Source of the DNA: Nitrospirae bacterium CG2_30_70_394
Lineage (GTDB): Bacteria; CG2-30-53-67; CG2-30-70-394
Reading direction: 5' to 3'
Length of the DNA: 33,827 bases
NCBI GenBank assembly: GCA_001873295.1
Contig: MNYW01000013.1
Span: 1-33,827, forward strand
Shown: piece by piece, positions 9,199-32,630 of the stretch
Layout of the letters: each line of letters starts with the position of its first letter
Numbering within the stretch: position 1 is the stretch's first letter
Position numbers and translations under genes: made by a program
Notes under the pieces: model-generated
What the model saw: only the letters and a program-made list of their open reading frames with translations
Told to the model about the DNA's origin: nothing
The model's database searches: none

Positions 9199-9240
9199 GC
9201 CAGCCTGGCAGGGCTGGCACACGTTTGAGCCAGCGTGGCA
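9199..9240. promoter_or_regulatory. probable upstream activator sites for the sigma-54 regulator
   Basis: A perfect palindrome GCCAGCCTGGC (9199-9209) is followed by a second inverted repeat, GCTGGC at 9213-9218 and GCCAGC at 9229-9234 separated by ten bases. TGGCA recurs at 9206, 9215, 9236 and 9251. These sites lie 105-160 bases upstream of the -24/-12 element, the usual place for enhancer-binding protein sites, and just in front of the activator's own gene. Confidence 0.55.
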
Positions 9241-9358
9241 GCGGTGCGGGTGGCAGGGAGGCCGCCCGCCCCACCCCCGGCGGCCGCGCTTTCCCGCACA
9301 GGGGGAGTAGTGATAATGGCCACGGGCGCCGAACGGTTGGCGCGGCCGAACCTCGACC

Positions 9359-10732
<1,374 letters not shown>

Positions 10733-10930
10733 CGCAAGGTCCGCGCCTAAGCCGTGGGTGGCCACGGTCCTGGAGAACGGGCGAACCCTGCGCCTCACCC
10801 GCCACGGTTTGCGGCGGAGGAGGGGGCGGAGGCGGCCGGTGGGTGGCGCCTCCCTGGGAGTGGACCCGCATTCAGGGGCGGGCCGTGCTTCCCGACCCGC
10901 AACCCCATCCGCGCCCGCACCCTCGTGGCT

Positions 10931-10961
10931 GCCGCCGATCGACCAAGTCCGACAGGCTCCT
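10931..10961. repeat. dispersed 31-bp repeat, copy A
   Basis: This 31-base sequence (core GACCAAGTCCGACAGGCTCCT) matches the reverse complement of 19133-19163 at 27 of 31 positions. This copy abuts the stop codon of the cytochrome gene. The rest of the 10733-10959 gap shows nothing recognisable. Confidence 0.6.
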
Positions 10962-11472: not shown

Positions 11473-11586
11473 CGGTTCACTCCTGGTTGCAACCCGCCGG
11501 TCGGAGGGGAGAAAGCGAACCTCCCACACCGGCTCCGCGTGGGACAAGTCGCCGGGGGTGGGGGCGGCGGCGGAGCGCGGCGCGCC

Positions 11587-12960
11587 TCACCGCTCGGGGG
11601 GGAGGTGGGTGGTGGCGCCGGTGAACAGGGCGGCCCCCTCCATCACCGTCTCCGCGAGGGTGGGGTGGGGGTGGCAGGTGGCGGCGATCTCTTCGGCGGT
11701 GGCGTGGAGGGTGAGGGCGAGGGTGAGCTCGGCGATCAGCTCGCCAGCGTGCGCGCCGGCGATCCCACCGCCGGCCAGATGGCCTGCCGCATCCCAAACG
11801 AGGCGGGTGAGACCGGTGGCGTCGCCGAGGGTGGCTCCACGCCCCGAGGCCGACCACGGGAAGTGGGTCACCCGACCCTTCGGCGGTGGCTGCTGGGCGC
11901 CGACCCAGGCGATCTCGGGACGGGTGTAGACCACCGCCGGGATCGGCGCCCCAGGCGGGGTGGGGGCGCCGCCGATCGCCGCCACCGCCACCTGTGCCTG
12001 GTGGCTCGCCCGGTGGGCCAGCAACGGCGGGCCGGTGAGGTCGCCGATCGCGAACAAGGTGGGCTCGCGCGTGCGGCCGGTGGCGTCGGTCTTGACGAAG
12101 CCGGCCGCGTCGAGGGCCACGGTGGTGGTGTCGAGGCCAAGCAGATCGCTGTTCGGCCGCCTCCCCGTGGCGACGAGGATGCGGTCCACCTCCACCGTCG
12201 CCGCCCCCGCGCCGGTCAAAACCACCTGCAGGCCACCGGCCACCTCCCGGACCGCAGCGACGCGCGTCGCCGTGTGGAGCGCCCCAAACTGGCGGCGGCA
12301 GGCGCGCGCCAAGGGCGCGACCAGCTCCCCCTCCACCCCCGGGAGGAGCTGTCCCTCCTGCTCCACCAAGATCACCCGGCTGCCGAGGGCGGCGTAGGCC
12401 CCGCCAAGTTCCAGCCCCACGGCGCCCGCCCCCACCACCAGCAGGCGCGGCCAGATCTGCTCCAAGGCCAAGGCCGCTTGCGCGTCCATCGTCCCGGGGG
12501 CGCCGGCGAGGGGCGGCGGCGCGGTCGCACGGGAGCCGGCGGCGAGGATGGCGTGGTGAAAGCGGATTCGCTCTTCCCCTCCCGCACCGGCGACCACCGC
12601 CTCGTTAGCGGAGAGGAGGCGCGCCGTACCCACCAGCCGGCGGACGTGGCGGGCCTGGGCGAGGGAGGCAAGGCCGCGCGCCATCCGCCCCACCACCCCC
12701 TCCTTCCAGGCGCGCAGGCGGTCGAGGTCGATCGCCGGCTCCCCAAACTCGATCCCCATGCGCCGCGCCCCACGCCCCTGCTCCACCACCTCGGCGGCGG
12801 CGAGCAGCGCCTTCGACGGGATGCACCCCTCGTGCAAGCAGACGCCGCCGGGCAGGGGCCGGAGATCGACGAGGACCACCTCCATCCCGCGATCGGCGGC
12901 GGCGAAGGCGGCGGTGTAGCCGCCCGGCCCCCCCCCGATGATCAACAGCTCCGTCTCCAT
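11587..12960 (-). CDS. lpd: dihydrolipoamide dehydrogenase-like flavoprotein
   Basis: This 457-residue enzyme has the full set of lipoamide dehydrogenase features: FAD-binding GGGPGG near residues 9-14, redox-active disulfide GGVCLHEGCIPSK with C41 and C46, NAD-binding GAGAVG, the second FAD block FAIGDLTG, and the catalytic His-Glu pair in HPHPTLAE (H432, E437). It should oxidise dihydrolipoamide with NAD. The ATG at 12960 is preceded by GGGAG five bases away. No E1 or E2 oxo-acid dehydrogenase gene is present, so it is a stand-alone copy. In sulfur oxidisers, stand-alone Lpd homologues can serve lipoate-binding proteins of the sHdr pathway; that is only a possibility here because no sHdr gene is in the window. 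Confidence 0.9.
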   Translation of the reverse strand: METELLIIGGGPGGYTAAFAAADRGMEVVLVDLRPLPGGVCLHEGCIPSKALLAAAEVVEQGRGARRMGIEFGEPAIDLDRLRAWKEGVVGRMARGLASLAQARHVRRLVGTARLLSANEAVVAGAGGEERIRFHHAILAAGSRATAPPPLAGAPGTMDAQAALALEQIWPRLLVVGAGAVGLELGGAYAALGSRVILVEQEGQLLPGVEGELVAPLARACRRQFGALHTATRVAAVREVAGGLQVVLTGAGAATVEVDRILVATGRRPNSDLLGLDTTTVALDAAGFVKTDATGRTREPTLFAIGDLTGPPLLAHRASHQAQVAVAAIGGAPTPPGAPIPAVVYTRPEIAWVGAQQPPPKGRVTHFPWSASGRGATLGDATGLTRLVWDAAGHLAGGGIAGAHAGELIAELTLALTLHATAEEIAATCHPHPTLAETVMEGAALFTGATTHLPPER

Positions 12961-13367
12961 GCGCGCTCCCGTCACCCCTCCCTCGGCCAGCCATGATGCC
13001 ACGCAGGCAGCCGCGCCGCAGGGCAGCGCTCGACCGCAAAGAGGCGAACCGATCCCCGATCGCCGCCCCGACGCCGCCGCCGCGCCCACGCCGCGCGCCG
13101 CCGCACCCGCCCGGCGGACCACCGAGCCTGCCGCCTTCCACGGCGGTGGAGAGGCCAAGGCGTGGGGTTCGACCGCTCCCTTGGGCCCATTCAGCCCCGG
13201 GTGGCGAGGGAGGCGCCGCGGGGGGGTGGATCGCCGTCCGGTGGGACCGTCCTTTGCCGCGCTGCGCTCGGGAGGGTCGCACCGGCGCGCGACCGGGGAC
13301 GAGCCGCCAAGCCGCCGCGGGTCGCTACCGCCCCGGGGCGAGGGGCGCGACCCCGCTCGACCCGCCC
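12961..13367. other. 407-bp gene-free stretch upstream of lpd
   Basis: Reading frames here are open only because of high GC; their products are Arg/Pro/Ala strings with no natural composition. No recognisable promoter, hairpin with a T-tract or RNA gene was seen. It separates the batD-batE fusion stop from the lpd start. Confidence 0.5.
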
Positions 13368-15941
13368 TCACCGGCCGGTGGCGACCTCCGCCACCGCCAC
13401 CGCCGGCAGCCACCCCACCAGCCGCTCGCCGAGGCGAATCCGCAGCCAGTCGCCCTGCCGGGCGAGGCGGGTGGCGGGGGCGCCGGCGTGGAGGGTGAAT
13501 ACCTCCGGGAAGGTCTCGCCCGGACCGCTGTGGGCGACCTGCTCGGTGGCGAGGCAGATTGCCAGGGGGAAGGTGGCGCGCTGGTGGTGGGCGAGGGCGA
13601 GGAGGGAGGCAACGGTGGTGAACGCGACGAGCAGGCCGACGAGCGCGAGGATCCAGCCGTCGCGCGCGTCGCGCGGCCGGCGCTGGGCGAGGCCGACAAC
13701 CACCGCGAGCGCCCACCACGCCGCCACCCCCGCCGCCGCGAGGGGCGTTTCGTGGGTGGCGAGCCAGCTCAGGCGCGGGACCTCCGTGGCCTGCACCTGG
13801 TCCACCGCGGCGAGCCGCGCCACCTCCAGGTTCGCGGTTGCGTCGGCGAGGGTGGGGTCGAGGTAGCGCGCCCGCTCCCAGTGGTAGATCGCCCTGCCGA
13901 GGTCGCCGGCTTGGTAGGCGGCGCAGCCGGCGTTGTAGTGGCGGGGTGCGCTCTCCCCTGCGGCGAGCAAATCCTCGTAGGTGCGCAAAGCGAGGCCGTA
14001 ATCACCCGCCACGTACGCCTCCCGCGCCGCGGCGATCTGGCCCGCGGGCTCGTTTGCGGCGGTGGCCAGGGTGGCGGCGGCGACCAGAGCGCAGAGGAGG
14101 GCGGCCGGCCGCCCACCGCCGGTCCCGCCAACGGTGAGCGTGGCGATTGCGGAGCGCGCAGCACTGGCGAGGCTGGCGACGTCGCCGCCGCCCGGGGCAA
14201 AGGCGGCGGCATCCAAGCGGTCGAGGAGGGTGGCCACCGCCGCGATCGCCGGCGCCGGCTGGCCGGCAGCGGCCAGCGCCGCGCTGAGTTGGTCACGCAT
14301 GAGCCCGCCCACCCCCCTCCCCACGATCGCCGCGAGGGCCACCTCCACCAGGGTGCGCACCGTGGCGAGGTCGGGGGCGCCCTCCAGGCGGCCTGCGGCG
14401 TCGCGCAGCGCGGCGCGGCGCGCCGCCGCAGGCCGCCGGTGGCTGGCGCGGCGCCGCACCAGGGCGAGGATCCCGGCGCCTCCAAAGAAAAGCGGCGGCG
14501 CGGCCACCGCCGCCCAAAAGGCGGGGCGCTCCACCCACGGCGGTGCACCCCCCACGGCCAGGGCGGCGTCGCCGGCGAGGTAGTGGATCTCCTGGCGCAA
14601 GAGGGTGACCGCGCGCGGCCCCAACGAAATCCCGCCGCTTCCCCCTTGGGCGGCGGCGGCCACGTGCAGCGAAAAGGGGTCCAGCGTTGCGGTGACGTAC
14701 GCGCCGGTGGCCGGGTCGAACCAGGCGGGGAGCGGCGGCGGGAGGGTGAAGTCACCCGCCTGGCGCGGAACCACCAGGGTGGTGAAGGTGCATTCCCCGG
14801 TGGCGCCATCGGCGGTGGGTTTGAGCTGGCAGTCGCGGTCGGTGTCAAAGCTCTCTAGCCCCTCGGGCAGCTCCGGCAAGGGGAGCTTCAGGGCCCGGAA
14901 GTTGCCGGTGCCGCGCACCCGCACCACCCAGCGCACCGGCTCGCCAACGCGGGTCGTGGCCGGGTCGAGGCTGGCCTCGGCGGTGAACCTCCCCACCGCG
15001 CCGGTAAAGGTGGCGGGACGGTCCGCCGCGGGGGGCTCAACAACGTGCAGGGTGACCGGCGCGCTGGCCACGGTCTGGGTGGCGGCTGGCTCCATGAGCA
15101 TGGCAAAGGGGGCGTTGCCACGCCCCGGGGTGCGATGGCGTACCGCCACCGCGACCGCGGGCAGGGTCAACTCCCCGGCCCGGTTGGGGGTGATGAGGCG
15201 TGACAGCAGGAGGGCCCGGCCGTAGCGCCTCCCCCGCGCCTCCACCTCCTCCAGGGTGAGTACCTTCGGGGAGACGAGCTCCTCCACCCAACAGTCCGGG
15301 AAGTCGGGCGGGGTGGCGAAGTCGAGGCTGATCACCGACAGGCGGGTGTAGAGGTAGAGGCTCACCACCACCGGCTCGCCCACCACCACCTCCCCCTTGG
15401 CGAGGGTGAGCTCCAAAAAGAGCGGCACCGCCGCCTCCCCCGCGGGGGGATCCGCCGGCACGGGGGTCGCCCGGGCGGATGGCGGGGCGGGAGCGGCGCC
15501 ACCCCCAGCCTCGACGACGGTGATCGCAATCGGCTGGCTCGCCAGCCTCTCGCCCTGGGAGTCCACGGTCAGGGCAGGGATCGTCAGCCTCCCGGCACGC
15601 ACCGGCCGCAGGACGTAGAGGAGGGTGGTGGCGGTGGTCGCACGACCGTTGTTGAACTCGAGGGTGCGGCCGGTGGAGCGCGCCGTCACCTCGAAGTCGT
15701 CGCCGAAGTCAAAGGCCAGCTCCGGCGACCACCCCATCCCCTCGGCGCGGAAGCCCACCCGAAGCTGGAGTTGCTCGCCGAGGCTGAGGGTATCGCGATC
15801 GACCTCGGCGGTGAGGGCCGCCGCGACCGCCGCCCGGGCGGGCAGGAGGGCGAGGAGGAGGAGGGCACCGACCACCCAGCGCCGCCCGCGGTGGCGCGGC
15901 CACGGCGGCCGCGAAGGAACCCAGCTCCGACCCGCACCCAT
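13368..15941 (-). CDS. batD: BatD-BatE fusion protein (aerotolerance operon)
   Basis: The 857-residue envelope protein joins two Bat components. After a signal/anchor segment (WVVGALLLLALLPARAAVA, about 22-40) comes BatD: repeated beta-rich domains with GEQLQLRVGF and TLLYVLRPVRAGRLTIP. The C-terminal ~230 residues are BatE-like: TPR units (YNAGCAAYQAGDLGRAIYHW), two membrane helices and a final SH3-like domain (GDWLRIRLGERLVGWLP). Bat proteins, usually encoded with MoxR and DUF58 proteins, are linked to envelope stress and oxygen tolerance. ATG codons at 15953 and 15941 are both possible. It belongs with batB and batC, but a rightward vapBC module separates them; moxR and the DUF58 gene are not in the window. 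Confidence 0.82.
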   Translation of the reverse strand: MGAGRSWVPSRPPWPRHRGRRWVVGALLLLALLPARAAVAAALTAEVDRDTLSLGEQLQLRVGFRAEGMGWSPELAFDFGDDFEVTARSTGRTLEFNNGRATTATTLLYVLRPVRAGRLTIPALTVDSQGERLASQPIAITVVEAGGGAAPAPPSARATPVPADPPAGEAAVPLFLELTLAKGEVVVGEPVVVSLYLYTRLSVISLDFATPPDFPDCWVEELVSPKVLTLEEVEARGRRYGRALLLSRLITPNRAGELTLPAVAVAVRHRTPGRGNAPFAMLMEPAATQTVASAPVTLHVVEPPAADRPATFTGAVGRFTAEASLDPATTRVGEPVRWVVRVRGTGNFRALKLPLPELPEGLESFDTDRDCQLKPTADGATGECTFTTLVVPRQAGDFTLPPPLPAWFDPATGAYVTATLDPFSLHVAAAAQGGSGGISLGPRAVTLLRQEIHYLAGDAALAVGGAPPWVERPAFWAAVAAPPLFFGGAGILALVRRRASHRRPAAARRAALRDAAGRLEGAPDLATVRTLVEVALAAIVGRGVGGLMRDQLSAALAAAGQPAPAIAAVATLLDRLDAAAFAPGGGDVASLASAARSAIATLTVGGTGGGRPAALLCALVAAATLATAANEPAGQIAAAREAYVAGDYGLALRTYEDLLAAGESAPRHYNAGCAAYQAGDLGRAIYHWERARYLDPTLADATANLEVARLAAVDQVQATEVPRLSWLATHETPLAAAGVAAWWALAVVVGLAQRRPRDARDGWILALVGLLVAFTTVASLLALAHHQRATFPLAICLATEQVAHSGPGETFPEVFTLHAGAPATRLARQGDWLRIRLGERLVGWLPAVAVAEVATGR

Positions 15942-16023
15942 GGCGCCCAACATGGCCACCGGCGCGCCGCCGAGCAAGGGGGCCGAGCGGCCACGGTGAG
16001 GCAACCACGCGCCGGCGGATCGG

Positions 16024-16045
16024 GCGGGCGGGTTCGCCGGCGGCC
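16024..16045. repeat. 22-bp direct repeat flanking the vapBC module (left copy)
   Basis: Bases 16024-16045 match 16994-17015 with one mismatch (centre GGGTTCGCCGG versus GGGTTCACCGG). The two copies bracket 948 bases holding vapBC and its operator. High GC content lowers the significance of such a match. Confidence 0.5.
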
Positions 16046-16150
16046 ACGTGCGCCAGCCTTGGAGCGGGAGAGGGATGGTGCCCCGCCGCAACAAGCGGTC
16101 ACCCTGAAGCTCCCGGTTGGATGGGCGTGGCAGGGGCTACGCGGTATCCT

Positions 16151-17059: not shown

Positions 17060-17989
17060 TCACCAGTCCTGCGCCCGCCGCCGCGGCGCCACCGGCACGA
17101 GGCGGGCGCGGACCTGGCGCTGGACCTCGCCCTCTTGGCGCTGGAGGTCGTCAAGGAGCTGGTTGGCCGAATCGGCGGTCCTCGCCCCGGCCGGCTCGCC
17201 CGCGCCGCCGTCTGGCCGGGGGGCGGCCGGGGCCGGGGCGGCCACGCCGGGGGGACCGGGTTCGTCCCGCCCTCCCGGCTGCCCCTGCGCCCCTGACTCG
17301 CCTCCCCCAGGCTCCGGCGGGGGCGGCGCGCCCGCCGGACCGGCAGGCGGCGACGCAGCCGCCCCCGGGTCGGCCGCAGGCGGCGCGGGCGGCGTCTCCC
17401 CCTGGACCTTCCCCGCCTGCTCCTCGCCCTTGCCGTCCGGCGACTCGGGGGGGGGCTCCGCCTGCGGCTGCCCCGCGTCGCCCTTCTCCCCCGCCTCGCC
17501 TTGCGGGGGCGGCTTCTGCCCCTCCTCCTCCTTCTTCTGCGCCTCTTTTTTCTCCTGCGCCTCCTGCAGCCGCTGGCGGGCGAGCTCCAGGTTCGCCTTA
17601 GCATCTTGCCGCGTGGGGTCGGCCCGCAGGGCGGCCTCGAAGGCCTGGACCGCCTCCCCCCATCGCTCCTCGGCGAGGTAGGTGGTGCCGACGTTGTACG
17701 CGATGGCGGCGCGCAGGGGTTCGCCCCCGGCGGTGAGGGCCGCCTGGAGGTGGTCGCGAGCCGCCGCCGGATCGCCCGCCTGCGCCTCGGCAAGGCCGAG
17801 GTCAAAGAGGATCTCCGGCCGCCCCGGGGCGCGCGCCAGGGCGCGCTGGTAGGCGGCCACCGCCTCCTTCGCCTTGCCCTCTTGCAGGGCCAGGTTGCCC
17901 GCGGCCACCAGCCCACGGGTGGTGGTGAAGGCGAGGGCGGTGGCGGCGAGGAGGAGCCCCGCCGCGCGCGCCGCGCTCCCGCTCCTCAT
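17060..17989 (-). CDS. batC: BatC-type TPR protein
   Basis: This 309-residue protein has an N-terminal hydrophobic segment (about 8-25) and TPR repeats: AVAAYQRALARAPGRPEILF and WGEAVQAFEAALRADPTRQD, ending ANLELARQRLQEAQEKKEAQ (about residues 30-155). A long low-complexity Pro/Gly/Glu/Ala-rich stretch (roughly 156-265) follows, then a short charged helix (LLDDLQRQEGEVQRQVRARL). It matches the BatC pattern of a membrane-anchored TPR protein with a charged tail. Its ATG overlaps the batB stop in an ATGA junction and has GGGAGG upstream, so it is translationally coupled to batB. It acts with BatB and BatD in the periplasm or inner membrane. Confidence 0.82.
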   Translation of the reverse strand: MRSGSAARAAGLLLAATALAFTTTRGLVAAGNLALQEGKAKEAVAAYQRALARAPGRPEILFDLGLAEAQAGDPAAARDHLQAALTAGGEPLRAAIAYNVGTTYLAEERWGEAVQAFEAALRADPTRQDAKANLELARQRLQEAQEKKEAQKKEEEGQKPPPQGEAGEKGDAGQPQAEPPPESPDGKGEEQAGKVQGETPPAPPAADPGAAASPPAGPAGAPPPPEPGGGESGAQGQPGGRDEPGPPGVAAPAPAAPRPDGGAGEPAGARTADSANQLLDDLQRQEGEVQRQVRARLVPVAPRRRAQDW

Positions 17990-18999
17990 GGCCGCCCCTC
18001 CCGCCGCCGCCCTTCGGGCCAGGCCGCATCGAGGAGGAGGAGGGCGAAGGCAGGAAGGAGGAAGAGGTGGTAGCGCTCTTGGCGCTGCACCGTGACCCGG
18101 GCGGTGCGTTCGGCGCGCGCCAAATCCGCCATCTGCGCCACCACCTCGCCCATCTCCGGGTCGCCCGGGGTGGCCTGGAAGTAGGCGCCACCGGTCTCCA
18201 CCGCCAGACGGGCGAGGTCGTCGGGGACCAGGCGGGTGAGGATCACCGCGCCGCGCCGGTCCTTCTTGTACCCCTCCAGGGTGTTGTTCGCGCCGCGCAG
18301 GGGGATCGGCGCCCCGCCCGGGGTCCCCATGCCGACGGTGTAGACCCGGACCCCCGCCCCCTTCGCCGCGGCGATCGCCCGCTCGACGCTCCCGTCGTGG
18401 CCCTCGCCGTCGGAGAGCAGGAGGATCACGTGCGCCCCCTCGCCGCCCGTCTTGAGGGCGGCAAGGGCGGTGGTGATGGCGTTGCCGAGGTCGGTCCCCT
18501 GGCTCTCGAACATGGCGGGGTCGAGGAGGTCGAGGAACATGCGCGCGGCGCCGTAGTCGACGGTGAGGGGGCACTGGAGAAAGGCGGTCCCGGCGAAGGC
18601 GACGATACCGACGCGATCGCCCGTGAGGCGCGCGAGGAGCCGCTCCACCGCGTGCTTGGCGCGCGCCAGGCGCGACGGCTTGAGGTCCTCGGCGAGCATC
18701 GAGGTGGAGCAGTCGACGCAGACCAGCAAATCGAGACCGCGAAGGGTCACCTCCTCCACCTGTTCGCCCCACTGCGGGCGGGCGAGGGCAACGATCAGCA
18801 GGGCGAGAGAGACGAACAGCACGAAACCACGCAGCCGCCGCCTAAGCGGCAGGGCGACCACCCCCAGGGCGGCGCCGCGCCCCACGTCGATTAGCCGCGC
18901 CAACCGCCGCCGCCGCGCCTGGTGGCTAGCCAGCAAGAGGAGGGCGACGAGGGCCAACAGGGCCAGGCCGTAGAGGCGCTGCGGATTCCCAAACACCAT
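17986..18999 (-). CDS. batB: BatB-type von Willebrand factor A membrane protein
   Basis: The 337-residue protein has two N-terminal membrane helices (about 9-25 and 57-74), a VWA domain and a C-terminal helix (YHLFLLPAFALLLLDAAW). The metal-ion-dependent adhesion site is intact: DCSTS (D96, S98, S100), GTD (T169) and SDGEG (D197). This is the standard BatA/BatB arrangement. The ATG at 18999 is preferred over a GTG at 19053 because the protein then begins directly before the first helix. Only one such VWA gene is present; the usual batA, DUF58 and moxR genes are not found upstream within the window, where a repeat-bearing gene-free stretch intervenes, so the operon is incomplete or split. Confidence 0.88.
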   Translation of the reverse strand: MVFGNPQRLYGLALLALVALLLLASHQARRRRLARLIDVGRGAALGVVALPLRRRLRGFVLFVSLALLIVALARPQWGEQVEEVTLRGLDLLVCVDCSTSMLAEDLKPSRLARAKHAVERLLARLTGDRVGIVAFAGTAFLQCPLTVDYGAARMFLDLLDPAMFESQGTDLGNAITTALAALKTGGEGAHVILLLSDGEGHDGSVERAIAAAKGAGVRVYTVGMGTPGGAPIPLRGANNTLEGYKKDRRGAVILTRLVPDDLARLAVETGGAYFQATPGDPEMGEVVAQMADLARAERTARVTVQRQERYHLFLLPAFALLLLDAAWPEGRRREGRP

Positions 19000-22626: not shown

Positions 22627-24423
22627 ATGAACGTTCTGATTCCGCTGCTGGCAGGTTTGGGCCTGCTGTTCGTCGCCGCCAAGACCTATCCGTTCTATCT
22701 CTCCCGCAAGCTCGGGGTGGATGACCACAACGTGACCCCCGCCTACCGCATGCAGGACGGGCGCGACTACGTGCCGACCCGGACGCACGTCGTGTTCGCG
22801 CACCACTTCAGCGTGATCGCCGGCGCGGGCCCCATCGTCGGCCCGACCCTCGCCCTCGCGTACGGCTGGGCGCCGGCGTGGCTCTGGATCGTTGTCGGCT
22901 GTGTCCTGTTCGGCGCCGTGCATGACATGACCTCGATGTTTGTGTCGATGCGCGAAGAGGGTAGGTCGATCGCCGATATGGCGCGTCGCAGTCTCGGTGG
23001 GTGGGGCTACATGTTCTTTCTGGCGTTCCTCATCATGATTCTCACCCTGATCAACGCGATCTTTTTGAACCTGTCGTGCAAGGCTTTGACCGCGGCCTAT
23101 CCCGCGTCCCTGCTGAAGCTGGAGGAGGGCAGCCACATCCTCACCACGTTCGTGAAAGACGGCGTGCTGATGGGCCGCATTGGCGGCATCGCGACCACCT
23201 CAGTGTTCGTCATCACGGCGTTCGCGCCGCTGATCGGCTGGCTTGTGCACAAGCGTCACTGGCCCACCGGACTCCTTTATGTGATTGCCACCGTGACGTG
23301 CGTAACAAGCATTCTGGTTGGCTTCAAGTTCCCGATCCTGCTCACGGAAGGGACGTGGCGCTACGTGATGTCGATCTACGTGTTCATCGCCTGCTGGTTC
23401 CCCGTGTGGCTGATTCTCCAGCCGCGCGATTTTGTGAACGTGCAGCTCCTCTACGGCGGTCTGCTCCTGATGTTCGTCGGGGTGATCCTGTACGGCTGCC
23501 AGGGCAACACGCTTCACGCCGCGTTTGCCCTGGTCGGTGAAGGCCAGACACTCACCGGCCCGATCTGGCCGTTCTTGTTCATCACCGTCGCGTGCGGCGC
23601 GATCAGTGGGTTCCACAGCCTCGCGGCGACCGGCACGACGGTGAAGCAGATCGGCAGGGAATCCGAAGTCCGGCGGGTGGGCTACAACGCCATGATCCTC
23701 GAAGGCGTGCTCGCCCTCCTCGCCCTGTTGCTGACCGCCAGCGCCCTGCCGCGCGTGGAGTACATGAACATCGTCTTTCCGGCGAATCACGACGGCAACC
23801 CGATCCTCGCGTTCTCGATCGCCATGGGCTACATGCTGAACAACGTCGCTGCCATCCCGGTCGCGCTCGGCTCGGTGCTCGGCATCCTCGTGCTGGAGGG
23901 GTTTGTCGTGACGACCCTCGACACCTCCATCCGCCTTTGCCGGTACATGTTCGAGGAGTTCTGGGTCTTCCTCTTTCAGGACCGGCGCATCGGTTTGCTG
24001 AAAAACCCGTTCGTGAATACCGCCTTGGCCGTCGCCCTCATGCTCTTCTTCGCCTTGAACTCGACCATCATGTCGGCGTGGAAAATCTTCGGCGCGGGCA
24101 ACCAGTTGATCGCCGCGTTGGCCATGACCGTGGTGACCGTCTGGCTGCTCCAGCGCGGGCGCTCCTTCTGGTTCACGATCATCCCGGCGCTCCTGATGAC
24201 GATCACCACCTTTGCGACGCTGATCACCTCGATCAAAAAGAACCTCGCGCCGGTGGGGAGCGAGCAGCTCATCGTTCCGGGACAGGGGCCGCTGACGGCG
24301 GCGTCCGCGTTGCTCCTCGTGCTGGCGGTCGGGGTGATCTTCGTCTCGGCGAAGAGGTTCGGCGAAGGCTACCTGGCGCAGCGGCTGGCGGCGTCCAGCG
24401 TCCAAGGTGACCCTGGGCTCTAG
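22627..24423 (+). CDS. cstA: CstA-family carbon starvation protein / peptide or pyruvate transporter
   Basis: The 598-residue protein is almost wholly hydrophobic with about 15 membrane helices. Family hallmarks are the N-terminal DDHNVTPAYRMQDGRDYVPT and VVFAHHFSVIAGAGPIVGP (about 33-74), and the internal GAISGFHSLAATGTTVKQI. CstA proteins take up peptides or pyruvate when carbon is short, driven by an ion gradient. Length is shorter than E. coli CstA (about 700) and agrees with the shorter bacterial branch. The gene is clearly less GC-rich than its neighbours (two sampled 60-base lines gave 53 and 55 percent) and uses more T-ending codons, which suggests recent acquisition. No yjiX/ybdD-like small gene follows. 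Confidence 0.92.
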   Translation: MNVLIPLLAGLGLLFVAAKTYPFYLSRKLGVDDHNVTPAYRMQDGRDYVPTRTHVVFAHHFSVIAGAGPIVGPTLALAYGWAPAWLWIVVGCVLFGAVHDMTSMFVSMREEGRSIADMARRSLGGWGYMFFLAFLIMILTLINAIFLNLSCKALTAAYPASLLKLEEGSHILTTFVKDGVLMGRIGGIATTSVFVITAFAPLIGWLVHKRHWPTGLLYVIATVTCVTSILVGFKFPILLTEGTWRYVMSIYVFIACWFPVWLILQPRDFVNVQLLYGGLLLMFVGVILYGCQGNTLHAAFALVGEGQTLTGPIWPFLFITVACGAISGFHSLAATGTTVKQIGRESEVRRVGYNAMILEGVLALLALLLTASALPRVEYMNIVFPANHDGNPILAFSIAMGYMLNNVAAIPVALGSVLGILVLEGFVVTTLDTSIRLCRYMFEEFWVFLFQDRRIGLLKNPFVNTALAVALMLFFALNSTIMSAWKIFGAGNQLIAALAMTVVTVWLLQRGRSFWFTIIPALLMTITTFATLITSIKKNLAPVGSEQLIVPGQGPLTAASALLLVLAVGVIFVSAKRFGEGYLAQRLAASSVQGDPGL

Positions 24424-24757: not shown

Positions 24758-26065
24758 TCATCCATCCACCGCCTCGATCTCGAAGTGCAGGCGGGCGTGG
24801 GCGGCGCGCAGGGTGGCCTCCACCGCCGCCGGGGTTGGGCCGCGGGCGAAGAGGAAGCCGAGATAGCGGTCCCCCTCGGGCAGGGGAACCAGGCGGTGGC
24901 CAATCGGCACGGTGATCGCCACCTCGGCGACGTTCGGTAGGCCGCGCGCCTGCTCCACCCCCGCGACCGCCACCAGGCGGCCGCCGTGGGGGATGGGAAC
25001 CATCATCACCCCGGCGGGGGGAAGCTGGGCGGGGACCGCCGCGGCGCCGCCGCCGAGGGCGTGGCGGAGGACCACCTCTTCCAACGTGATCCCCGCGGCG
25101 AGGCGGATGGTCCGGCCGCACAGGCCGCCGATGGTGCGCGGCGCAACCTCCACCACGTGGCAGGCGCCCGCAGCGGGGATCCGGATCTCGATGTGGACCG
25201 GCCCCTCCACCAGGCCAAGGCCGTCGCACGCCGCCGCCGCGGTGCGCCAAATCTCAACCTGGGTCGCCGGGGCCAGGCGCGACGGGGTGACGTAGAGGGT
25301 CTCCTCGAAGTAGGGGCCGTCGAGGGGGTCGGGCTTGTCGAACAGGCAGATGGGGTGGAGGTGGCCGGCCACCAGCAGCCCCTCCACCGCCACCTCGACG
25401 CCGGTGATGAACCCCTCGGCAAGGAGGGTCTCGTCCACCTGCCCGCGCCGCTCGTGCGCCACCGCGGTGAGGATCCGGCCGATCCGCTCGCCGGCGGCGA
25501 CGAAGGCGGCGACGGTGTCCGCGCGGATCACCCCGCGGCTGCCGCCCAGATCGCGCGGCTTGAGGACGCACGGGTAGTCCACCGCCGCCGCCGCCGTGGC
25601 GAGCTCACGCCGCCACGCCACCAGCCGGCAGGGCGGCTGGGGCAGCCCCGCCGCGGCGAGCAACCGCCGGGTGGTGAGCTTGTCGCGCGCCGCCGCCACC
25701 GCCGCCACCGGGTTGGCGCGCAAGTGGAGCAGCTCGGCGGCGCGTGCCGCCGGGATCATCGTGTCGTCATCCAGCCCCACCACCGCGCGCACCGGATAGT
25801 GGGCGTGGAAGGCAACGATCGCGCGCGCCGTCGCCTCCCCATCCGCCAGCGGCAGGGTGAGCGTCGCCCCGGGGGCGAGGCCGGCCAGGGCGGTGGGGGT
25901 ATCCGAGCCGACGGTGACCTCCACCCCGAGGCCGTCGGCCGCCGCCAGCAAGTCGGCGGTGCGATAAGAGTGGCTGCTGAGGAGAAGGAGCAGGCGCGGC
26001 CGGCCGGCGCGGCCGCCGCTGGCGGCGAGCGCCTCGATCTGGGCGGGCGAGAGGTCGATGGCCAT
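24758..26065 (-). CDS. ATP-grasp ligase of unknown substrate
   Basis: The 435-residue protein has the biotin-carboxylase-like ATP-grasp layout: an N-terminal Rossmann-like preATP domain with VVGLDDDTMIPAARAAELL (95-113), then DKLTTRRLLAAAGLP (128-142), the ATP lid lysine and glycine loop VLKPRDLGGSRGV (167-179), the hinge acid in LLAEGFITGVEVAVEGLL (214-231), and magnesium ligands E293 and E306 with R310 (VVEVAPRTIGG). Such enzymes join a carboxylate to an amine through an acyl phosphate; relatives include L-amino-acid ligases. The substrate cannot be inferred because it stands alone, divergent from the sensor kinase gene. The ATG at 26065 was chosen because upstream residues are unnatural. 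Confidence 0.85.
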   Translation of the reverse strand: MAIDLSPAQIEALAASGGRAGRPRLLLLLSSHSYRTADLLAAADGLGVEVTVGSDTPTALAGLAPGATLTLPLADGEATARAIVAFHAHYPVRAVVGLDDDTMIPAARAAELLHLRANPVAAVAAARDKLTTRRLLAAAGLPQPPCRLVAWRRELATAAAAVDYPCVLKPRDLGGSRGVIRADTVAAFVAAGERIGRILTAVAHERRGQVDETLLAEGFITGVEVAVEGLLVAGHLHPICLFDKPDPLDGPYFEETLYVTPSRLAPATQVEIWRTAAAACDGLGLVEGPVHIEIRIPAAGACHVVEVAPRTIGGLCGRTIRLAAGITLEEVVLRHALGGGAAAVPAQLPPAGVMMVPIPHGGRLVAVAGVEQARGLPNVAEVAITVPIGHRLVPLPEGDRYLGFLFARGPTPAAVEATLRAAHARLHFEIEAVDG

Positions 26066-26354
26066 GGGCTGGGAGGTCGAACGAGGAGGCGGCGAGGATA
26101 GCGCCTGGACCGCGCCTACGCCCTGCCGGGCGCGCTCCCCCGCCGGGGGTAGGCGGCGGCCCGTGGTTCCCGCCGCCGGTGCACCGGCCACCGCGGCTGG
26201 GGGCGGTGCGCCGCTCTGGCGTGCGACCCGCGCGGCCCGTCCTCACCCCACCCTGCGCGCCACCCCCTCCCCGAGAAAGAGGCGCTTACCGCGGCCGTTT
26301 GTCTTGCCACCGCACTTCGGGCATGAACGGACCGATCGTTGTTGCGGAGGCGCG

Positions 26355-28472
26355 ATGCCCTTCATTCACCCCAGCCGGTCGCAGACCACCGTGGCCACCC
26401 TCCTCGCCGCGGCGCTCGCCGCGACCGGCCTGCTCCTCGACCTCACCACACCGAACGGCGAGGCGGGCGGCGGGGTCTACGTGGCGCTGGTGATCCCCGC
26501 GTTGTGGCTGCCGTGGCGCGCCGCCCCGGTCGTCCTGGCGACCCTCGGGACGCTCCTCATCGGGGTGGGCTACCTCCCCCACGCCGCCGCCCCCAGCGCG
26601 TGGCTCGCCCTCCCCAGCCGCGGCCTGGTAGTGGCCACCGTGTGGATCGTGGCGGTGGCGATCGGCCAGTACCGCCGGGCGGTGATCCGCGCCAGCCGGG
26701 TTGGCCACCTGCGCGCCTTGATCGACGCCACCGCCGACGGGGTGATCATGATCGACGGCCGCGGCACGGTGCAGGAGCTGAACCGCGCCTGCGAACAGCT
26801 CTTTGGCTACCCCGCCGCCGAGGTGGTCGGCCACAACGTTGCCATGCTCATGCCGTCGCCCTACCGCGAGGAACACGACGGCTACCTGGCGCGCTACCGG
26901 GCGACCGGCGAGCGGCGGGTGATCGGCCGCGGCCGGACGGTGGTGGGACGGCGCAAGGACGGCTCCACCTTCCCGGTGCAGTTGGCGGTCGGCGAGGCGC
27001 GCCACGCGGGCGAGGCGATCTTCGTGGGCACGGTGCGGGATCTCACCGAGCGCGAGGTCACCGCCCACACCCTGCGCGAGGCGAAGGAGGCCGCGGAGGC
27101 GGCGAACCGGGCGAAGTCCCAGTTCCTCGCCAACATGACCCACGAGCTGCGCACGCCGCTTAACGCGATCCTCGGCTACGCCCAGATCATGGACCACGAC
27201 GCGACCGTCCCCGCCGCCCACCGGCGCGCGGTGCGAGCGATCCTGAACGCCGGCAACCACCTCATGGAGCTGATCAACGAGATCCTCGACCTGTCCAAGA
27301 TCGAGGCCGGCGCGATGGAGCTCCACCCCTCGGACTTCTCGGTGGCGGAGCTAGTGGAGGGGCTCGCGGACCTCTTTGAGGGGCGGTGCGCGGAAAAGGG
27401 GATTGGCTGGCGGGTGGAGAACCGCGTCGCCGGCGCGGGGGTGGTGCGCGGCGACCGCGGCAAGCTGCGCCAGGTGCTGATCAACTTCCTCGGCAACGCG
27501 GTGAAGTTCACCGACCGCGGCGAGGTGGTCCTGCGCGTCGGCCGCGACGGTGACTCGGACGCCGTGCACTTCGCGGTGGAAGACAGCGGGGCGGGGATCG
27601 CGCCGGCGGCGCGGGCGGCGATCTTCGAGCCGTTCATCCAGGCGGAGGCGGGACGCGACAAGGGCGGCACCGGCCTCGGCCTGGCGATCGCCAAGCACCA
27701 GGTCGAGATCATGGGCGGGCGGCTGGAGCTCGACACCGAGGTGGGGCGGGGAAGTTGCTTCACCTTCTCCCTCCCCCTGCCGCGCGCGGTGGCGGCAACC
27801 GGCGGCGACCCGCCCGCGGCGCGGGTGGTGGGGCTCGCCCCCGGCTGCACGATGGACGCGGTGGTGGCGGACGACGTGGCGGACAATCGGGAGATCCTGT
27901 CGCAGATGCTCACCACCCTTGGGGTGAGCGTGCGCACCGCGACGGATGGGCGCGCCGCCCTGGCCCTGGTGGCCGAGCGGCGGCCGGACATCTGCTTCCT
28001 CGACATCCGGATGGTGGGCATGGGCGGGGTGGAGGCGCTGGCGGCGATTCGCGCCGGCTCCAACACGACGGTGTGCGTGGCGGTCACCGCCGCCGGGTTG
28101 GTCCACGAGAGCGAGGCGTTGCGCGCCGCCGGTTTCGACGAGGTGATCCGCAAGCCATTTCACTTCGAGCAGATCTACGCCTGCCTTGCCCGCCACCTGG
28201 GCGCCCGCTTTCGCTACGCGGACGACCTCGCGCCCGGCGCAGCGGCGGAGGTTGCCTTCGATCCCGCCGCCCTCTCCCTCGCCGCACCCCTCTACGACCG
28301 CCTGCAGGCGGCGGCGCGGCTCAACGCCTTCACCGAGGTGGAGGCGCTGCTGGCCGAGGTGGCGGCGACCTCCGCCGCGGGTTCGGCCCTCGCCAGCCAC
28401 CTGCGGACCCTCCTCGATCGCTACGACAGCGACGCCCTCCTCGCCACCCTTTCGCGAGTAACCCATGACTGA
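26355..28472 (+). CDS. FixL-like heme-PAS hybrid sensor histidine kinase
   Basis: This 705-residue membrane kinase has hydrophobic N-terminal helices (about 12-30, 41-72 and 88-104), a PAS domain (118-232), a DHp helix with HELRTPLN (H263), an ATPase domain (N-box near 377-384, GTGLGLAIAKHQ near 438-449) and a receiver domain with phospho-acceptor D550 (CFLDIRM) and conserved RKPF. The PAS domain closely follows rhizobial FixL: H174 in REEHDGYLARY corresponds to the proximal heme histidine, R180 to Arg206 and R194 (GRGRTVVGRRKDG) to Arg220 of Bradyrhizobium FixL, with the same 20-residue spacing. It should sense oxygen or another diatomic gas. ATG 26355 has GGAGG upstream. It overlaps the next gene by eight bases. 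Confidence 0.9.
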   Translation: MPFIHPSRSQTTVATLLAAALAATGLLLDLTTPNGEAGGGVYVALVIPALWLPWRAAPVVLATLGTLLIGVGYLPHAAAPSAWLALPSRGLVVATVWIVAVAIGQYRRAVIRASRVGHLRALIDATADGVIMIDGRGTVQELNRACEQLFGYPAAEVVGHNVAMLMPSPYREEHDGYLARYRATGERRVIGRGRTVVGRRKDGSTFPVQLAVGEARHAGEAIFVGTVRDLTEREVTAHTLREAKEAAEAANRAKSQFLANMTHELRTPLNAILGYAQIMDHDATVPAAHRRAVRAILNAGNHLMELINEILDLSKIEAGAMELHPSDFSVAELVEGLADLFEGRCAEKGIGWRVENRVAGAGVVRGDRGKLRQVLINFLGNAVKFTDRGEVVLRVGRDGDSDAVHFAVEDSGAGIAPAARAAIFEPFIQAEAGRDKGGTGLGLAIAKHQVEIMGGRLELDTEVGRGSCFTFSLPLPRAVAATGGDPPAARVVGLAPGCTMDAVVADDVADNREILSQMLTTLGVSVRTATDGRAALALVAERRPDICFLDIRMVGMGGVEALAAIRAGSNTTVCVAVTAAGLVHESEALRAAGFDEVIRKPFHFEQIYACLARHLGARFRYADDLAPGAAAEVAFDPAALSLAAPLYDRLQAAARLNAFTEVEALLAEVAATSAAGSALASHLRTLLDRYDSDALLATLSRVTHD

Positions 28473-29631
28473 GACCCCTGCCACGGCGCGCTCGGGCGCC
28501 AAGATCCTCCTCGTCGACGACACCCCGGCGAACCTCGATCTGCTGCGCGACATCCTCGCGCCGGCGGGCTACCGGATCTTCTTCGCCACCAGCGGCGAGC
28601 AGGCGGTGCGGGTGGCCACCGAGGCGCGCCCCGACCTGATCCTCCTGGACGTGAACATGCCGCAGATGGACGGCTTTATGACCTGTACCCGCCTCAAGCA
28701 GGTGGCGGAGGTGGCGGAGATCCCGGTGATCTTTGTCACCGCGCGCACCGACGTGGAGGACCTCGCGCGCGGCTTCGCGGTGGGCAGCGTCGACTACATC
28801 ACCAAGCCGATCAAACCGCCGGAGGTGGAGGCACGGGTGCGCACCCACTTGCGGATCCAGGGGCTGATCGCAGAGCTGCGCGAGCTTTCCGCCACCAAGG
28901 ATCGCTTCTTCTCCATCGTCGCCAAGGAGCTCTCCCCCGCGGTCGCCGCCCTCGCCGAGGCGGGGCAGACCCTTGCCGCGGCCACCGCCCACGACCACCC
29001 GACCCCGGAGCCGGGCGCGCTGTTGGCGGTCACCACCGGTGCCGAGTCGGTCCTCACCCTCGTGGAGAACCTCCTCGAGTGGCCGCGGGTGGGGCGGGGC
29101 CAGAAGCTCGACCTGTACGCCAGCCCGGTGACCGACGCGACCCTCGCGAGTTTCGCCGCCGGCCTACCGGAGCTGCGCTTCCTCTCCCTCGCCGATACCC
29201 GGGTGACCGACGCCGGGCTGGCGCACGTGGCGCGCCTCACCGGCCTGCACGAGCTCCACCTCGACAACACCCCGATTAGCGACGCCGGGGTGGCGCAGCT
29301 CGCGCCGCTCACCGACCTGCGCATCCTCGATCTGAAGGGGACGCGGGTGACCGACTCGGGGCTGGCGATCGTGCGCCGCCTCCCCCACCTCCAGGCCCTC
29401 TACCTCACCCGCGCCCCGATCACCGACGCCGGCCTGGCCCACGTGGCGACCCTGGCGGAGCTGCGCACCCTGATCCTCTGGGACACCCCGATCACCGACG
29501 CGGGGCTCCTCCACCTTGCCCACCTTGCCCGCCTCACCGAGCTGATCCTGTGGAACACCCGGGTCACCGACGCGGGCGTCGCCGCCCTCGCCACGGCCCT
29601 GCCGGCGTGCGACATCAGCGCCCACATATAA
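28465..29631 (+). CDS. receiver / pseudo-DHp / leucine-rich-repeat protein
   Basis: The 388-residue protein joins three parts. Residues 12-130 are a response-regulator receiver with D18-D19, phospho-acceptor D62 (LLDVNMP), T92 and K114. Residues about 144-210 resemble a histidine-kinase DHp domain (ATKDRFFSIVAKELSP ... VENLLEWPRVGRG), but lysine K154 stands where the phosphorylated histidine should be, and no ATPase domain follows. Instead residues 215-388 form seven leucine-rich repeats of 24 residues with TDAGL turns at 222, 247, 271, 295, 319, 343 and 367. It is the likely partner of the preceding kinase (eight-base overlap). Phosphorylation may control dimerisation and LRR-mediated binding to an unknown partner. 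I know of no named family with this layout. Confidence 0.85.
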   Translation: MTETPATARSGAKILLVDDTPANLDLLRDILAPAGYRIFFATSGEQAVRVATEARPDLILLDVNMPQMDGFMTCTRLKQVAEVAEIPVIFVTARTDVEDLARGFAVGSVDYITKPIKPPEVEARVRTHLRIQGLIAELRELSATKDRFFSIVAKELSPAVAALAEAGQTLAAATAHDHPTPEPGALLAVTTGAESVLTLVENLLEWPRVGRGQKLDLYASPVTDATLASFAAGLPELRFLSLADTRVTDAGLAHVARLTGLHELHLDNTPISDAGVAQLAPLTDLRILDLKGTRVTDSGLAIVRRLPHLQALYLTRAPITDAGLAHVATLAELRTLILWDTPITDAGLLHLAHLARLTELILWNTRVTDAGVAALATALPACDISAHI

Positions 29632-29816
29632 GGGGTCAGGCCTTTACTTTATACTCCCGGTCCAACGCCGGACTCTGAGGCGCCACGGCGGAAGATGGTT
29701 CGTCGAGCGGGCCGCGAAGGGACGCGCATGGGCGCGAAGCGGGGAGGGGAAGCAGGCGAGGAAGGCGCTGGAGAAGGGCGAAAAGGGCGGGTGGCGCGCG
29801 CGGCGGCCGCGGCGGG

Positions 29817-32279
29817 TTAGCGCCTCTTCTTCGCCGCCCTCTTCTTCGCCCCGCGGCGCGGCCGCGGCGCAAAGGCGATCGCCGCCACCTCCTCGTAGGT
29901 GGCGGCGAAGTGGACCGTGAGGCCGTCTTTGATGTAGTCGGGGAGCTCCTCCACGTCGCCTTGGTTCGCCTCCGGGAGGATGAGCTCGTGGATCCGCACC
30001 CGGCGGGCGGCAATCACCTTCTCGCGGATGCCGCCCACCGGTAGGACCTGGCCGGTGAGGGTGAGCTCGCCGGTCATCGCCAACGGCCGGTCGATCTTCT
30101 GGCCGCGCGCCAAAGAGACCAGGGCGGTGGCCATGGTCACCCCGGCGGAGGGACCGTCCTTCGGCGTCGCCCCCTCGGGGACGTGAAGGTGGAGGAAGGC
30201 GCGGTCGAAGTAGGCAGGCTCCAAACCGAGGGACTCGGCGTGGCCGACCACGTAGCTGTAGGCGATGGCGGCGGACTCCTGCATCACCTCGCCGAGCTTG
30301 CCGGTGAGCTTGAAGCCGCGCTGCTTGGTGTGGACCCGCGCCGCCTCGACGTCGAGGGTGACGCCGCCGAGCGGCGTCCACGCCAGGCCGGTGACCACGC
30401 CGACGCCACGCTGCGGCGCCGTGGCGCTAAAGCGCGGCTTGCCCAGGTACGGCTCCAGACCACCGGCCACGATACGGATCGGCGGCTTGGCGCCGCCGGT
30501 CAGGGCGACCACCGCCTTGCGACCAATACGGCCGAGCTGCTTCTCCAGGGCGCGCACCCCCGCCTCACGCGCGTAGCCGTCGATTAGCTCCTTGAGCGCC
30601 GCGCTCGAGATCTGCAAATCGGACCGCTTCAGGCCGACCTTCTCCAGGGTGCGCGGCCACAGGTGGTGGTTGGCGATCGCCACCTTCTCGCGGGTGATGT
30701 AGCCGGGCAGGTGGATCACCTCCATCCGGTCCAAGAGCGGCGCCGGGATCGTGTCGAGCTGGTTGGCGGTGCAGATAAAAAGCACCTGGGAGAGGTCGAA
30801 GCGGAGGTCGAGGTAGTGGTCGAGGAAGTCGCGGTTCTGCTCCGGGTCGAGGACCTCCAAGAGGGCGGAGGCGGGGTCGCCCTGGAAGCTCGCCCCGACC
30901 TTGTCGATCTCGTCGAGGACGATCACCGGGTTGGCCACCGCCACCTCCTTGAGGGCGTGGATGACCTTGCCGGGCATGGCGCCGATGTAGGTGCGGCGGT
31001 GGCCCTTGATCTCCGCCTCGTCGCGCATCCCGCCGAGGGAGAAGCGGTACATCTTGCGCCCCACCGCCGCGGCGATGGAGCGGCCGATGGAGGTCTTGCC
31101 CACCCCGGGCGGCCCCACCAGCAAGAGGATCGAGCCGGCGATCTCCCCCTTGCGGGCACCCACCGCGAGGAGCTCGAGGATCCGCTCCTTCACGTCGTCG
31201 AGGCCGTCGTGGTCGCGGTCGAGGATGGCGCGCGCCTCCTTGAGGTCGAAGCGGTCAACCGAGGTCTGCCCCCACGGGAGCTGGGTGAGCCAGTCAAGGT
31301 AGTTGCGGGTGACCGCGTACTCGGGCGAGCCGACGTCGAGGACCGCGAGTTTGTCCATCTCCTCGTCCACCCTCCCCTGCGCCTGCGCCCCCAGGGTGAG
31401 GGTCTCGAGCCGCTTGCGGAACCGCTCCAGCTCGGCGGTCTTGTCGTCCTTGGAGAGGCCCAGCTCCTTCTGGATCTCCTTGAGCTGCTCCTTGAGGAAG
31501 AAGCGGCGCTGCTGGTCGGTCATCCGCTCCTGCACCGAGTCGCGGATCTTGGCGTGCAGCTTCGCCACCTCCAGCTCCTTCTTCAGGAGGGTGAGGACCC
31601 GCTCCATGCGCGCGATCAGGGGGAAGGTCTCGAGGACCGCCTGCAGCTCCTCCTTGGTGGCGGTGGTGATGGCGGCGGCAAAGTCGGCGAACGGCCCGGG
31701 CTCACCCAGGCCGAAGCGGCTGAGGAAGAGCTTCAGCTCCTCGCTGTAGACCGGGTTGAGGGGGATCAGCTCCTTAAGGGTGGTGGAGATCGCCATGCCG
31801 TAGGCGCGCAGCTCCTCGTCGCTGCCGGTGACGATCTCCGGGTACTCGACCCGCGCCACCCACGGCAGCTCGGTGGAGAGCCACTCGACGATCCGGAACC
31901 GCTCGATCCCCTGGGCGATGAAGCGGATGATCCCCTGGCGCTGGCCCGGCTCGTGGACCCGCACCAGGCAGCCGACCCCGTAGGTCGCTTCGGTGGAGAG
32001 GGGGTCGCTCTCCGCGCCGCGGGCGAGGAGCAGGCCGGCCATCTGGTGGCCGCTCTCCCCGATCGCCTCGATCGTCTTCAACCACCGCTCACCGTCGAGG
32101 AGCACCGGCATCCCCTGGCCCGGGAAGAAGGGGCGCTCCCACACCGGGAGGATGTGCAGAAGCGCGGGCCGGACGTCGCTGTGGCGCACAATCTCGGTGG
32201 AGGCGGCGCCCCCGCCAGCCGCCGCGTCGCCCGGACCACCTCCCTCGCCCTGCTCCTCCTTCGCTTCCTCGCTCGCCAT
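29817..32279 (-). CDS. lon: ATP-dependent protease Lon
   Basis: The 820-residue protein is a complete LonA protease: N-terminal substrate-binding domain, coiled-coil region, AAA+ module with Walker A GPPGVGKTS (K395) and Walker B VIVLDEIDKV, and the proteolytic domain with catalytic S711 (KDGPSAGVTMA) and K754 (GGIREKVIAARR), spaced 43 residues as in E. coli. It degrades damaged and regulatory proteins, which includes antitoxins in known systems, so it may act on the HipB-like and VapB-like proteins of this window (inference). The ATG at 32279 has GGAG seven bases upstream. The N-terminus has an extra acidic/Gly-rich stretch of about 30 residues and the C-terminus ends in a basic tail (RPRRGAKKRAAKKRR). 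Confidence 0.96.
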   Translation of the reverse strand: MASEEAKEEQGEGGGPGDAAAGGGAASTEIVRHSDVRPALLHILPVWERPFFPGQGMPVLLDGERWLKTIEAIGESGHQMAGLLLARGAESDPLSTEATYGVGCLVRVHEPGQRQGIIRFIAQGIERFRIVEWLSTELPWVARVEYPEIVTGSDEELRAYGMAISTTLKELIPLNPVYSEELKLFLSRFGLGEPGPFADFAAAITTATKEELQAVLETFPLIARMERVLTLLKKELEVAKLHAKIRDSVQERMTDQQRRFFLKEQLKEIQKELGLSKDDKTAELERFRKRLETLTLGAQAQGRVDEEMDKLAVLDVGSPEYAVTRNYLDWLTQLPWGQTSVDRFDLKEARAILDRDHDGLDDVKERILELLAVGARKGEIAGSILLLVGPPGVGKTSIGRSIAAAVGRKMYRFSLGGMRDEAEIKGHRRTYIGAMPGKVIHALKEVAVANPVIVLDEIDKVGASFQGDPASALLEVLDPEQNRDFLDHYLDLRFDLSQVLFICTANQLDTIPAPLLDRMEVIHLPGYITREKVAIANHHLWPRTLEKVGLKRSDLQISSAALKELIDGYAREAGVRALEKQLGRIGRKAVVALTGGAKPPIRIVAGGLEPYLGKPRFSATAPQRGVGVVTGLAWTPLGGVTLDVEAARVHTKQRGFKLTGKLGEVMQESAAIAYSYVVGHAESLGLEPAYFDRAFLHLHVPEGATPKDGPSAGVTMATALVSLARGQKIDRPLAMTGELTLTGQVLPVGGIREKVIAARRVRIHELILPEANQGDVEELPDYIKDGLTVHFAATYEEVAAIAFAPRPRRGAKKRAAKKRR

Positions 32280-32630
32280 GGGTCGTCTCCGCCTGCGCTG
32301 GGGGGTGAAGCTCCAGGATGGCAACGCGGCCGCCCCGCCGCCACCCCGCTACCCACAATCACCGTGGGGGGCGCGCCACCGGCCGGCGGCCAGCACACGG
32401 GCGGGGGAGCGCCGGCGACGCCGCTTCGCCGGCGACTTCTCTTGGCCGACTGCCCAAGCCAAGGCGCGGCCGGCCCACCACGCGGCGGTTGGACGGGCCA
32501 CGCTCTTGACCCACACGACCGGGCGGGTGGCGGTGCGGCCTCACCGACCCTGCCCCGCACGACCCACTCCGCCCCACCCGCTGCAGCGGGTGGCGGGGAT
32601 CGCACCGTCACGCCCCCGGCCCGCACCAGC
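32280..32630. other. gene-free stretch upstream of lon
   Basis: No protein of natural composition is encoded. It contains a perfect palindrome (32574-32593) and a 10-bp direct repeat CGCCGGCGAC at 32410-32419 and 32427-32436. The lon promoter should lie here but no clear -35/-10 or heat-shock-type boxes were found. Confidence 0.45.
32574..32593. repeat. 20-bp perfect palindrome
   Basis: CCACCCGCTG is followed directly by its complement CAGCGGGTGG. It lies 38 bases beyond the stop codon of the small disrupted gene on the minus strand and could form a 3' hairpin or bind a dimeric protein. There is no T-tract. Confidence 0.55.

Follow-up and report, generated by a model that had tools for sequence, protein, structure and literature searches.

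A receiver protein with a histidine-less DHp-like hairpin and leucine-rich repeats, encoded beside a FixL-like hybrid kinase in a Nitrospirae bacterium

One gene in the genome of Nitrospirae bacterium CG2_30_70_394, contained in the 33,827-nucleotide stretch of contig MNYW01000013.1 analysed here (the whole stretch is hereafter designated the window), raises the question of what a two-component receiver may control when it is followed by a kinase-like helical hairpin without a phospho-histidine and by leucine-rich repeats (LRRs) where an ATPase domain is expected. The features of its product (hereafter designated the REC-LRR protein) and of the hybrid kinase encoded upstream are collected in Table 1.

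Table 1 Features of the hybrid kinase and REC-LRR genes in the window (positions are those of the whole stretch).
Feature	Position	Strand	Basis
Hybrid histidine kinase: hydrophobic N-terminal segments, FixL-like PAS, HisKA, HATPase, REC, helical tail	26355..28472	+	Pfam, PDB matches, sister orthologue
FixL-type PAS	26706..27041	+	PDB 1d06 E 5e-38, 1dp6 E 2e-35
8-base kinase / REC-LRR overlap	28465..28472	+	ORF coordinates; same-place overlap in L011
REC / pseudo-DHp / LRR protein, 388 aa	28465..29631	+	ORF ATG to TAA; Pfam; AlphaFold2; sister orthologue
Receiver domain, aa 12-131, phospho-acceptor Asp62	28498..28857	+	Pfam PF00072; residue alignment
DHp-like helical hairpin, aa 132-211, prolonging the last receiver helix	28858..29097	+	profile; alignment; AlphaFold2
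Lys154 codon AAG, place of phospho-histidine	28924..28926	+	alignments; sister also Lys
Seven leucine-rich repeats, aa 212-380	29098..29604	+	Pfam; repeat reading; AlphaFold2
C-terminal end, aa 381-388	29605..29628	+	alignments

The Pfam receiver match (PF00072, E 2.3e-29) covers residues 14–125, and the active-site residues of response regulators are present, Asp18, Asp19, Asp62, and Lys114 being invariant and Thr92 almost so in a 10-sequence alignment. LRR_4 (E 4.5e-16) and LRR_6 (E 4.7e-12) both exceeded their curated cut-offs. No Pfam match to HATPase_c was obtained in the protein, a search for N-box and G-box motifs was also empty, and no helix–turn–helix (HTH) family, which together with a receiver would mark a FixJ-type regulator, was among its Pfam matches. 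An AlphaFold2 model (single chain, 14-row alignment; mean pLDDT 88, pTM 0.65) arranged the chain as the receiver, one helix running from the receiver into the hairpin (residues 118–174), a second helix (183–204), and an LRR solenoid; the block means of pLDDT in the hairpin were 67–79, the lowest confidence of the model, the N-terminus excepted. In Foldseek comparisons, the front of the model resembled receivers and the rear FBXL17 and ribonuclease inhibitor. Thus, the replacement of the ATPase domain by LRRs, as read in a preliminary description made from the sequence, was confirmed.

The DHp-like part of the protein gave no Pfam HisKA match. Against a profile of 10 REC-kinases from which the window protein had been left out, it scored 44.4 bits, the best of 1000 shuffled sequences (898 of which were reported at all) reaching 4.8; the columns of the profile had been defined in an alignment with the window protein present. 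This score and an alignment running through the hairpin indicate homology to HisKA/DHp domains. In a first alignment of 29 loci with matching receivers, the sister orthologue described below among them, 12 rows combined a HisKA-type hairpin with an N- or G-box motif. As L079 and L081 yield the same frame, these rows represent 11 distinct proteins; the remaining rows had GGDEF or other outputs and were uninformative on the histidine. A second alignment combined these 11 with 13 further loci from the search of another LRR-rich phylum (24 in total). At the phosphorylation site, all 18 homologues chosen for a kinase hairpin plus an N- or G-box motif have His; Lys takes its place in the window protein and in the sister (AHD to AKE). 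Of the remaining six, five are proteins with other outputs, and the His of L172 stands in another context that lacks these motifs. Pfam, applied to two of the REC-kinases, gave REC, HisKA, and HATPase_c for L083 and REC and HisKA for L097 (first 258 residues given). The loss of the phospho-histidine at residue 154, previously noticed in the window protein, therefore extends to both species. Leu138, Lys145, Ile151, Leu163, Leu199, Leu203, Trp206, and Gly212, judged invariant among the window protein, its sister, and eight active-type kinases, are retained in the hairpin, in contrast to the His. Judged by its receiver, the protein is a response regulator and, by its repeats, an LRR protein; tested for the phospho-histidine and a HATPase domain and found to have neither, it is not a histidine kinase.

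A full-length relative in the same genus was found on contig JAJRSX010000025.1 of bacterium isolate Dive96_bin1.162 (L011/L020), 86% identical over 388 residues (hereafter designated the sister). Nei–Gojobori dN/dS ratios between the two were 0.23 for the receiver, 0.59 for the linker and DHp-like part, 0.34 for the LRRs, and 0.37 for the whole gene, at a dS of 0.25; apart from the first ten residues, of which only 4 are identical, constraint is weakest in the linker and hairpin. The ATG of the sister's REC-LRR gene lies within the end of the same kinase gene, whose final ~74 codons are found there, and the rest of that kinase, 77% identical, terminates another contig in a C-rich run; we infer a complete pair across the contig break. 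A frameshift fusion of two genes, raised as a possibility in the preliminary description, is ruled out by a frame that is open in two species, under purifying selection, and overlapped by the same kinase gene.

The repeat region comprises a degenerate first repeat of 25 residues (212–236) and six repeats at exact 24-residue spacing (237–380), in agreement with the seven counted initially. The protein thus carries tandem LRRs, their solenoid fold being a prediction. Codons with an amino-acid change occurred at 3 of 30 exposed positions on the concave face versus 12 of 48 on the convex one (Fisher p 0.14; position classes taken from general LRR structure). The first five regular repeats, with no change at 25 exposed concave positions, give an impression of conservation, all three changes being in the last repeat, but over the whole face this is a trend short of significance. 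The closest planctomycete-type LRR proteins, which have TDAGL repeats, are 45–55% identical over the repeats, and the ALPxCDIS run at residues 378–385 recurs in several of them. Within the window genome, the REC-LRR gene is the sole place of LRR_4 (PF12799), and a search with the LRR query agreed. These sequences suggest that the repeats may have been taken up from a planctomycete-type donor.

How widespread the REC-LRR architecture may be was assessed by whole-protein searches of 392 genomes of the phylum of L015 (a planctomycete by title), 386 spread relatives, and 77 genomes of another LRR-rich phylum, together with 7 and 2 genomes of two small phyla and the seven locus genomes, these sets partly overlapping. 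Full-length matches came from the window genome and the sister only (the latter twice, as G001 and G110), with cut-offs of 1e-34, 1e-36, and 1e-40 in the three large searches, which a diverged REC-LRR protein could escape, and with four candidates per genome fully scored in the first two and up to 24 in the third. Six genomes of the same class contained no match to the DHp-LRR part (0/6 at E 0.001). Our own profiles detected 69 LRR frames (65 once contained fragments were dropped) and 107 receiver frames on 162 loci, and both coincided only in the REC-LRR gene and its sister. The other 67 LRR frames (63 after the same reduction) had no receiver, some frames being cut by locus ends beyond which a receiver would escape; in this respect, the planctomycete-type proteins differ from the REC-LRR protein, whose repeats and C-terminal run are otherwise like theirs. 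Thus, REC-LRR proteins were found in two species of one genus, in what is a sample and not a census, and the rarity initially claimed agrees with the lack of a further example in the genomes and loci searched. None was found in the open-access literature either, which does not establish absence from print: passages of papers dealing with LRRs on Ser/Thr kinases, Roco proteins, or immune proteins contain no REC-LRR protein (PMC4316618, PMC2229662, PMC1262709, PMC8195603, PMC4053784), there is likewise none in a passage of PMC5847659, and the sought terms are also absent from PMC4558063.

The further assertion that such a switch has no standard place in two-component systems was too strong, in view of what passages of two papers describe. 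Archaeal response regulators of the AF_1472 type, consisting of REC, PAS/GAF, and HisKA without HATPase, are expected to dimerise and bind proteins (PMC5847659); they share with the REC-LRR protein a receiver and a HisKA-type dimerisation part without an ATPase domain, and the words leucine, LRR, and repeats are absent from the main text of that paper. DivL is a well-studied pseudo-histidine kinase with Tyr in place of the His, so that both proteins have a DHp domain without phospho-histidine as a non-catalytic signalling part; it differs from the REC-LRR protein in its PAS and CA domains and in having Tyr where the latter has Lys, and LRRs are not mentioned in the passages on it (PMC4211667). 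Collectively, pseudo-kinases and REC-HisKA regulators were already known, and what is new is the LRR output, of which no other instance was found.

Because minus-strand genes, an ATP-grasp ligase and Lon, lie on both sides, the hybrid kinase and REC-LRR genes form a two-gene unit, and the eight-base overlap between them noted previously is indeed present. The kinase frame is open over 26058–28472, with ATG 26355 as the likely start. Three or four hydrophobic segments, of which two overlap each other, were counted in its product, and Pfam gave the HisKA, HATPase, and receiver domains of a hybrid kinase. In the PAS domain, a His (codon 26874–26876) and an Arg (codon 26934–26936), both kept in the sister, align with the proximal haem ligand and the distal oxygen-binding residue of FixL, respectively. 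The name "FixL-like" given in the preliminary description is therefore apt for the PAS domain, as the PDB match to 1d06 shows; the whole protein differs from FixL in being a hybrid kinase and scored 202.7 bits against the NCBIfam FixL model, far short of the cut-off of 850. The kinase is a probable oxygen sensor; the proposed link from gas sensing to protein interaction is based on the strong FixL PAS match, with the phosphotransfer and the LRR partner being putative. FixJ, the partner of FixL, is a regulator composed of a receiver and an HTH DNA-binding domain. The window system has in common with FixL–FixJ the FixL-type PAS with the aligned His and Arg and the hydrophobic segments, whereas its kinase, a hybrid, itself contains a receiver and the partner carries LRRs, not the DNA-binding domain of FixJ.

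The kinase receiver is followed by a tail of 74 residues (28248–28469, + strand) without a Pfam name or an obvious HPt histidine motif. Clearly similar tails were found in the kinases of L163, L164, L169, L174, and L175, all of the phylum of G012 (scores 84–101; 0/300 shuffles as good). Among the other seven kinases encoded upstream of REC-kinases, that of L084 was similar (49, 0/300) and that of L094 borderline (2/300), and those of L083, L085, L087, L088, and L097 were not above shuffles. Hybrid kinases that precede REC-kinases in the G012 phylum thus end in the same tail, which may represent a module, so far without a name, of this kinase pair.

Approximately residues 12–213 of the REC-LRR protein match REC-HisKA-HATPase kinases of other phyla with 36–45% identity, a range given by the rows of the spread-relative search that extend to the hairpin end. 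In 12 of the 18 homologues, the REC-kinase gene is located ≤350 nt downstream, on the same strand, of a frame scoring >120 against the window hybrid kinase, the order thus being the same as in the window (for example, in L083, L087, L094, L164, and L174); the REC-LRR protein differs from these kinases by Lys for His and by seven LRRs in place of HATPase. Pfam analysis of all 12 upstream frames, which are incomplete, being truncated at the locus end or by the frame, with the first Met guessed as the start, gave HisKA, HATPase, and REC in nine, HATPase and REC in two, and REC only in one (L084). On the basis of this gene order, the upstream domains, and the kinase tail shared with some of them, the window genes seem to represent a recurring hybrid-kinase/REC-kinase pair with a remodelled second member. 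Homology to kinases that uniformly have the His, combined with the kinase-first order, suggests a descent in which the second kinase of the pair would have lost catalysis and gained planctomycete-type repeats.

The reading that we favour, and consider probable on balance, is that the REC-LRR protein is a dimeric adaptor whose binding of other proteins is controlled by phosphorylation under a putative oxygen sensor, since this best fits the intact receiver, the conserved non-catalytic hairpin, the one continuous helix, and the regular solenoid. A former REC-histidine kinase would thereby have been turned into a response regulator. With its FixL-type PAS, the membrane hybrid kinase would sense oxygen or a different haem ligand, and phosphate would reach Asp62 of the REC-LRR receiver, either directly or over the kinase's own receiver and an HPt protein; with that receiver present, a straight transfer to the REC-LRR protein may not take place. 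Phosphorylation would then change the dimer face of the receiver, and the continuous helix and the retained DHp hairpin would relay this change to two paired LRR solenoids, making them bind or release a target protein. The predicted resemblance of the LRR part to the protein-binding LRRs of FBXL17 and ribonuclease inhibitor is consistent with the adaptor, as are the purifying selection between the two species, the recurrent gene order in 12 of the 18 homologues, and the adjoining FixL-PAS hybrid kinase gene, which overlaps with its 3' end in both species. Occurrence in two species of a single genus, the weak constraint and low model confidence of the hairpin, the kinase's own receiver, and the non-significant concave-face test count against it. 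Should the mechanism hold, a FixL-type sensor would govern contacts between proteins rather than transcription, and an LRR domain under receiver control would offer a practical means of switching binding when required. A two-component cascade may change its output when its second kinase is stripped of catalysis, keeps the hairpin as a transmission rod, and gains a protein-recognition domain of a type common in another lineage.

The signal might instead flow in reverse, with the LRRs as a protein-sensing input and the receiver and pseudo-DHp regulating the hybrid kinase through its DHp domain or receiver, as DivL does for CckA. DivL likewise has a His-less DHp domain with the fold kept, and the two window genes overlap; nevertheless, DivL keeps its ATPase domain and has PAS domains (PMC4211667), and a receiver with its active site whole is a better fit for a phosphorylated target. 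We regard reversed flow as unlikely. The constraint on the receiver, the strongest of the three domains (dN/dS 0.23 vs 0.34 and 0.59), would also be expected if the protein served the hybrid kinase as a phosphate sink or for feedback, with the receiver doing the work and the LRRs only anchoring or stabilising it; however, the LRR domain too is under purifying selection with all repeats kept, which makes a sink rather improbable.

It is highly improbable that the gene is a decaying, functionless relic in which remnants of LRRs became joined by chance to a defective REC-kinase. Its occurrence in one genus and the relaxed DHp-like part (dN/dS 0.59) would suit such a relic, but the frame is open with the same overlap in both species, the receiver and LRR ratios are well below 1, the repeats are regular, and the C-terminal run is shared with other proteins. 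A further idea, in which the LRR solenoid is an oxygen-controlled substrate adaptor that feeds targets to the adjacent Lon and is switched by the FixL-type kinase via the receiver, arises from the F-box LRR substrate receptors among the closest folds and from the tail-to-tail Lon gene, and is very much a long shot; if true, FBXL-type recognition would have a bacterial equivalent in these two genes. RssB and CpdR are response-regulator adaptors of proteolysis acting with ClpXP, in which the receiver controls protein binding, not DNA binding. They are not known to have LRRs or a DHp part, and the link to proteolysis in the window is Lon as the next gene only.

No known RNA element was found at Rfam gathering scores across the whole window, and no promoter or terminator patterns were found at 25900–30100, a result of little weight at such GC content. 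The Lon protease gene (Pfam) occupies 29817–32324 (− strand), tail-to-tail with the REC-LRR gene. On the sister contig (L011/L099), a Lon-like frame recognised by eye also follows the REC-LRR gene, from 3184 onward on the minus strand, preceded by extra sequence that includes a short frame (L011:2757–3161) reading like a putative PIN-domain toxin. Elsewhere in the window, a CstA carbon starvation protein is encoded at 22627–24423 (+; Pfam E 1.5e-127), and a sigma-54 activator with a PAS domain at 9359–10732 (+). Long frames without a Pfam match that overlap the latter (10171–12996, +; 9077–10798, −) are probably spurious and GC-driven. A BatD-like protein (13368–16094, −) and a TPR protein (17060–18772, −), encoded on the same strand, may belong to a Bat-type cluster.
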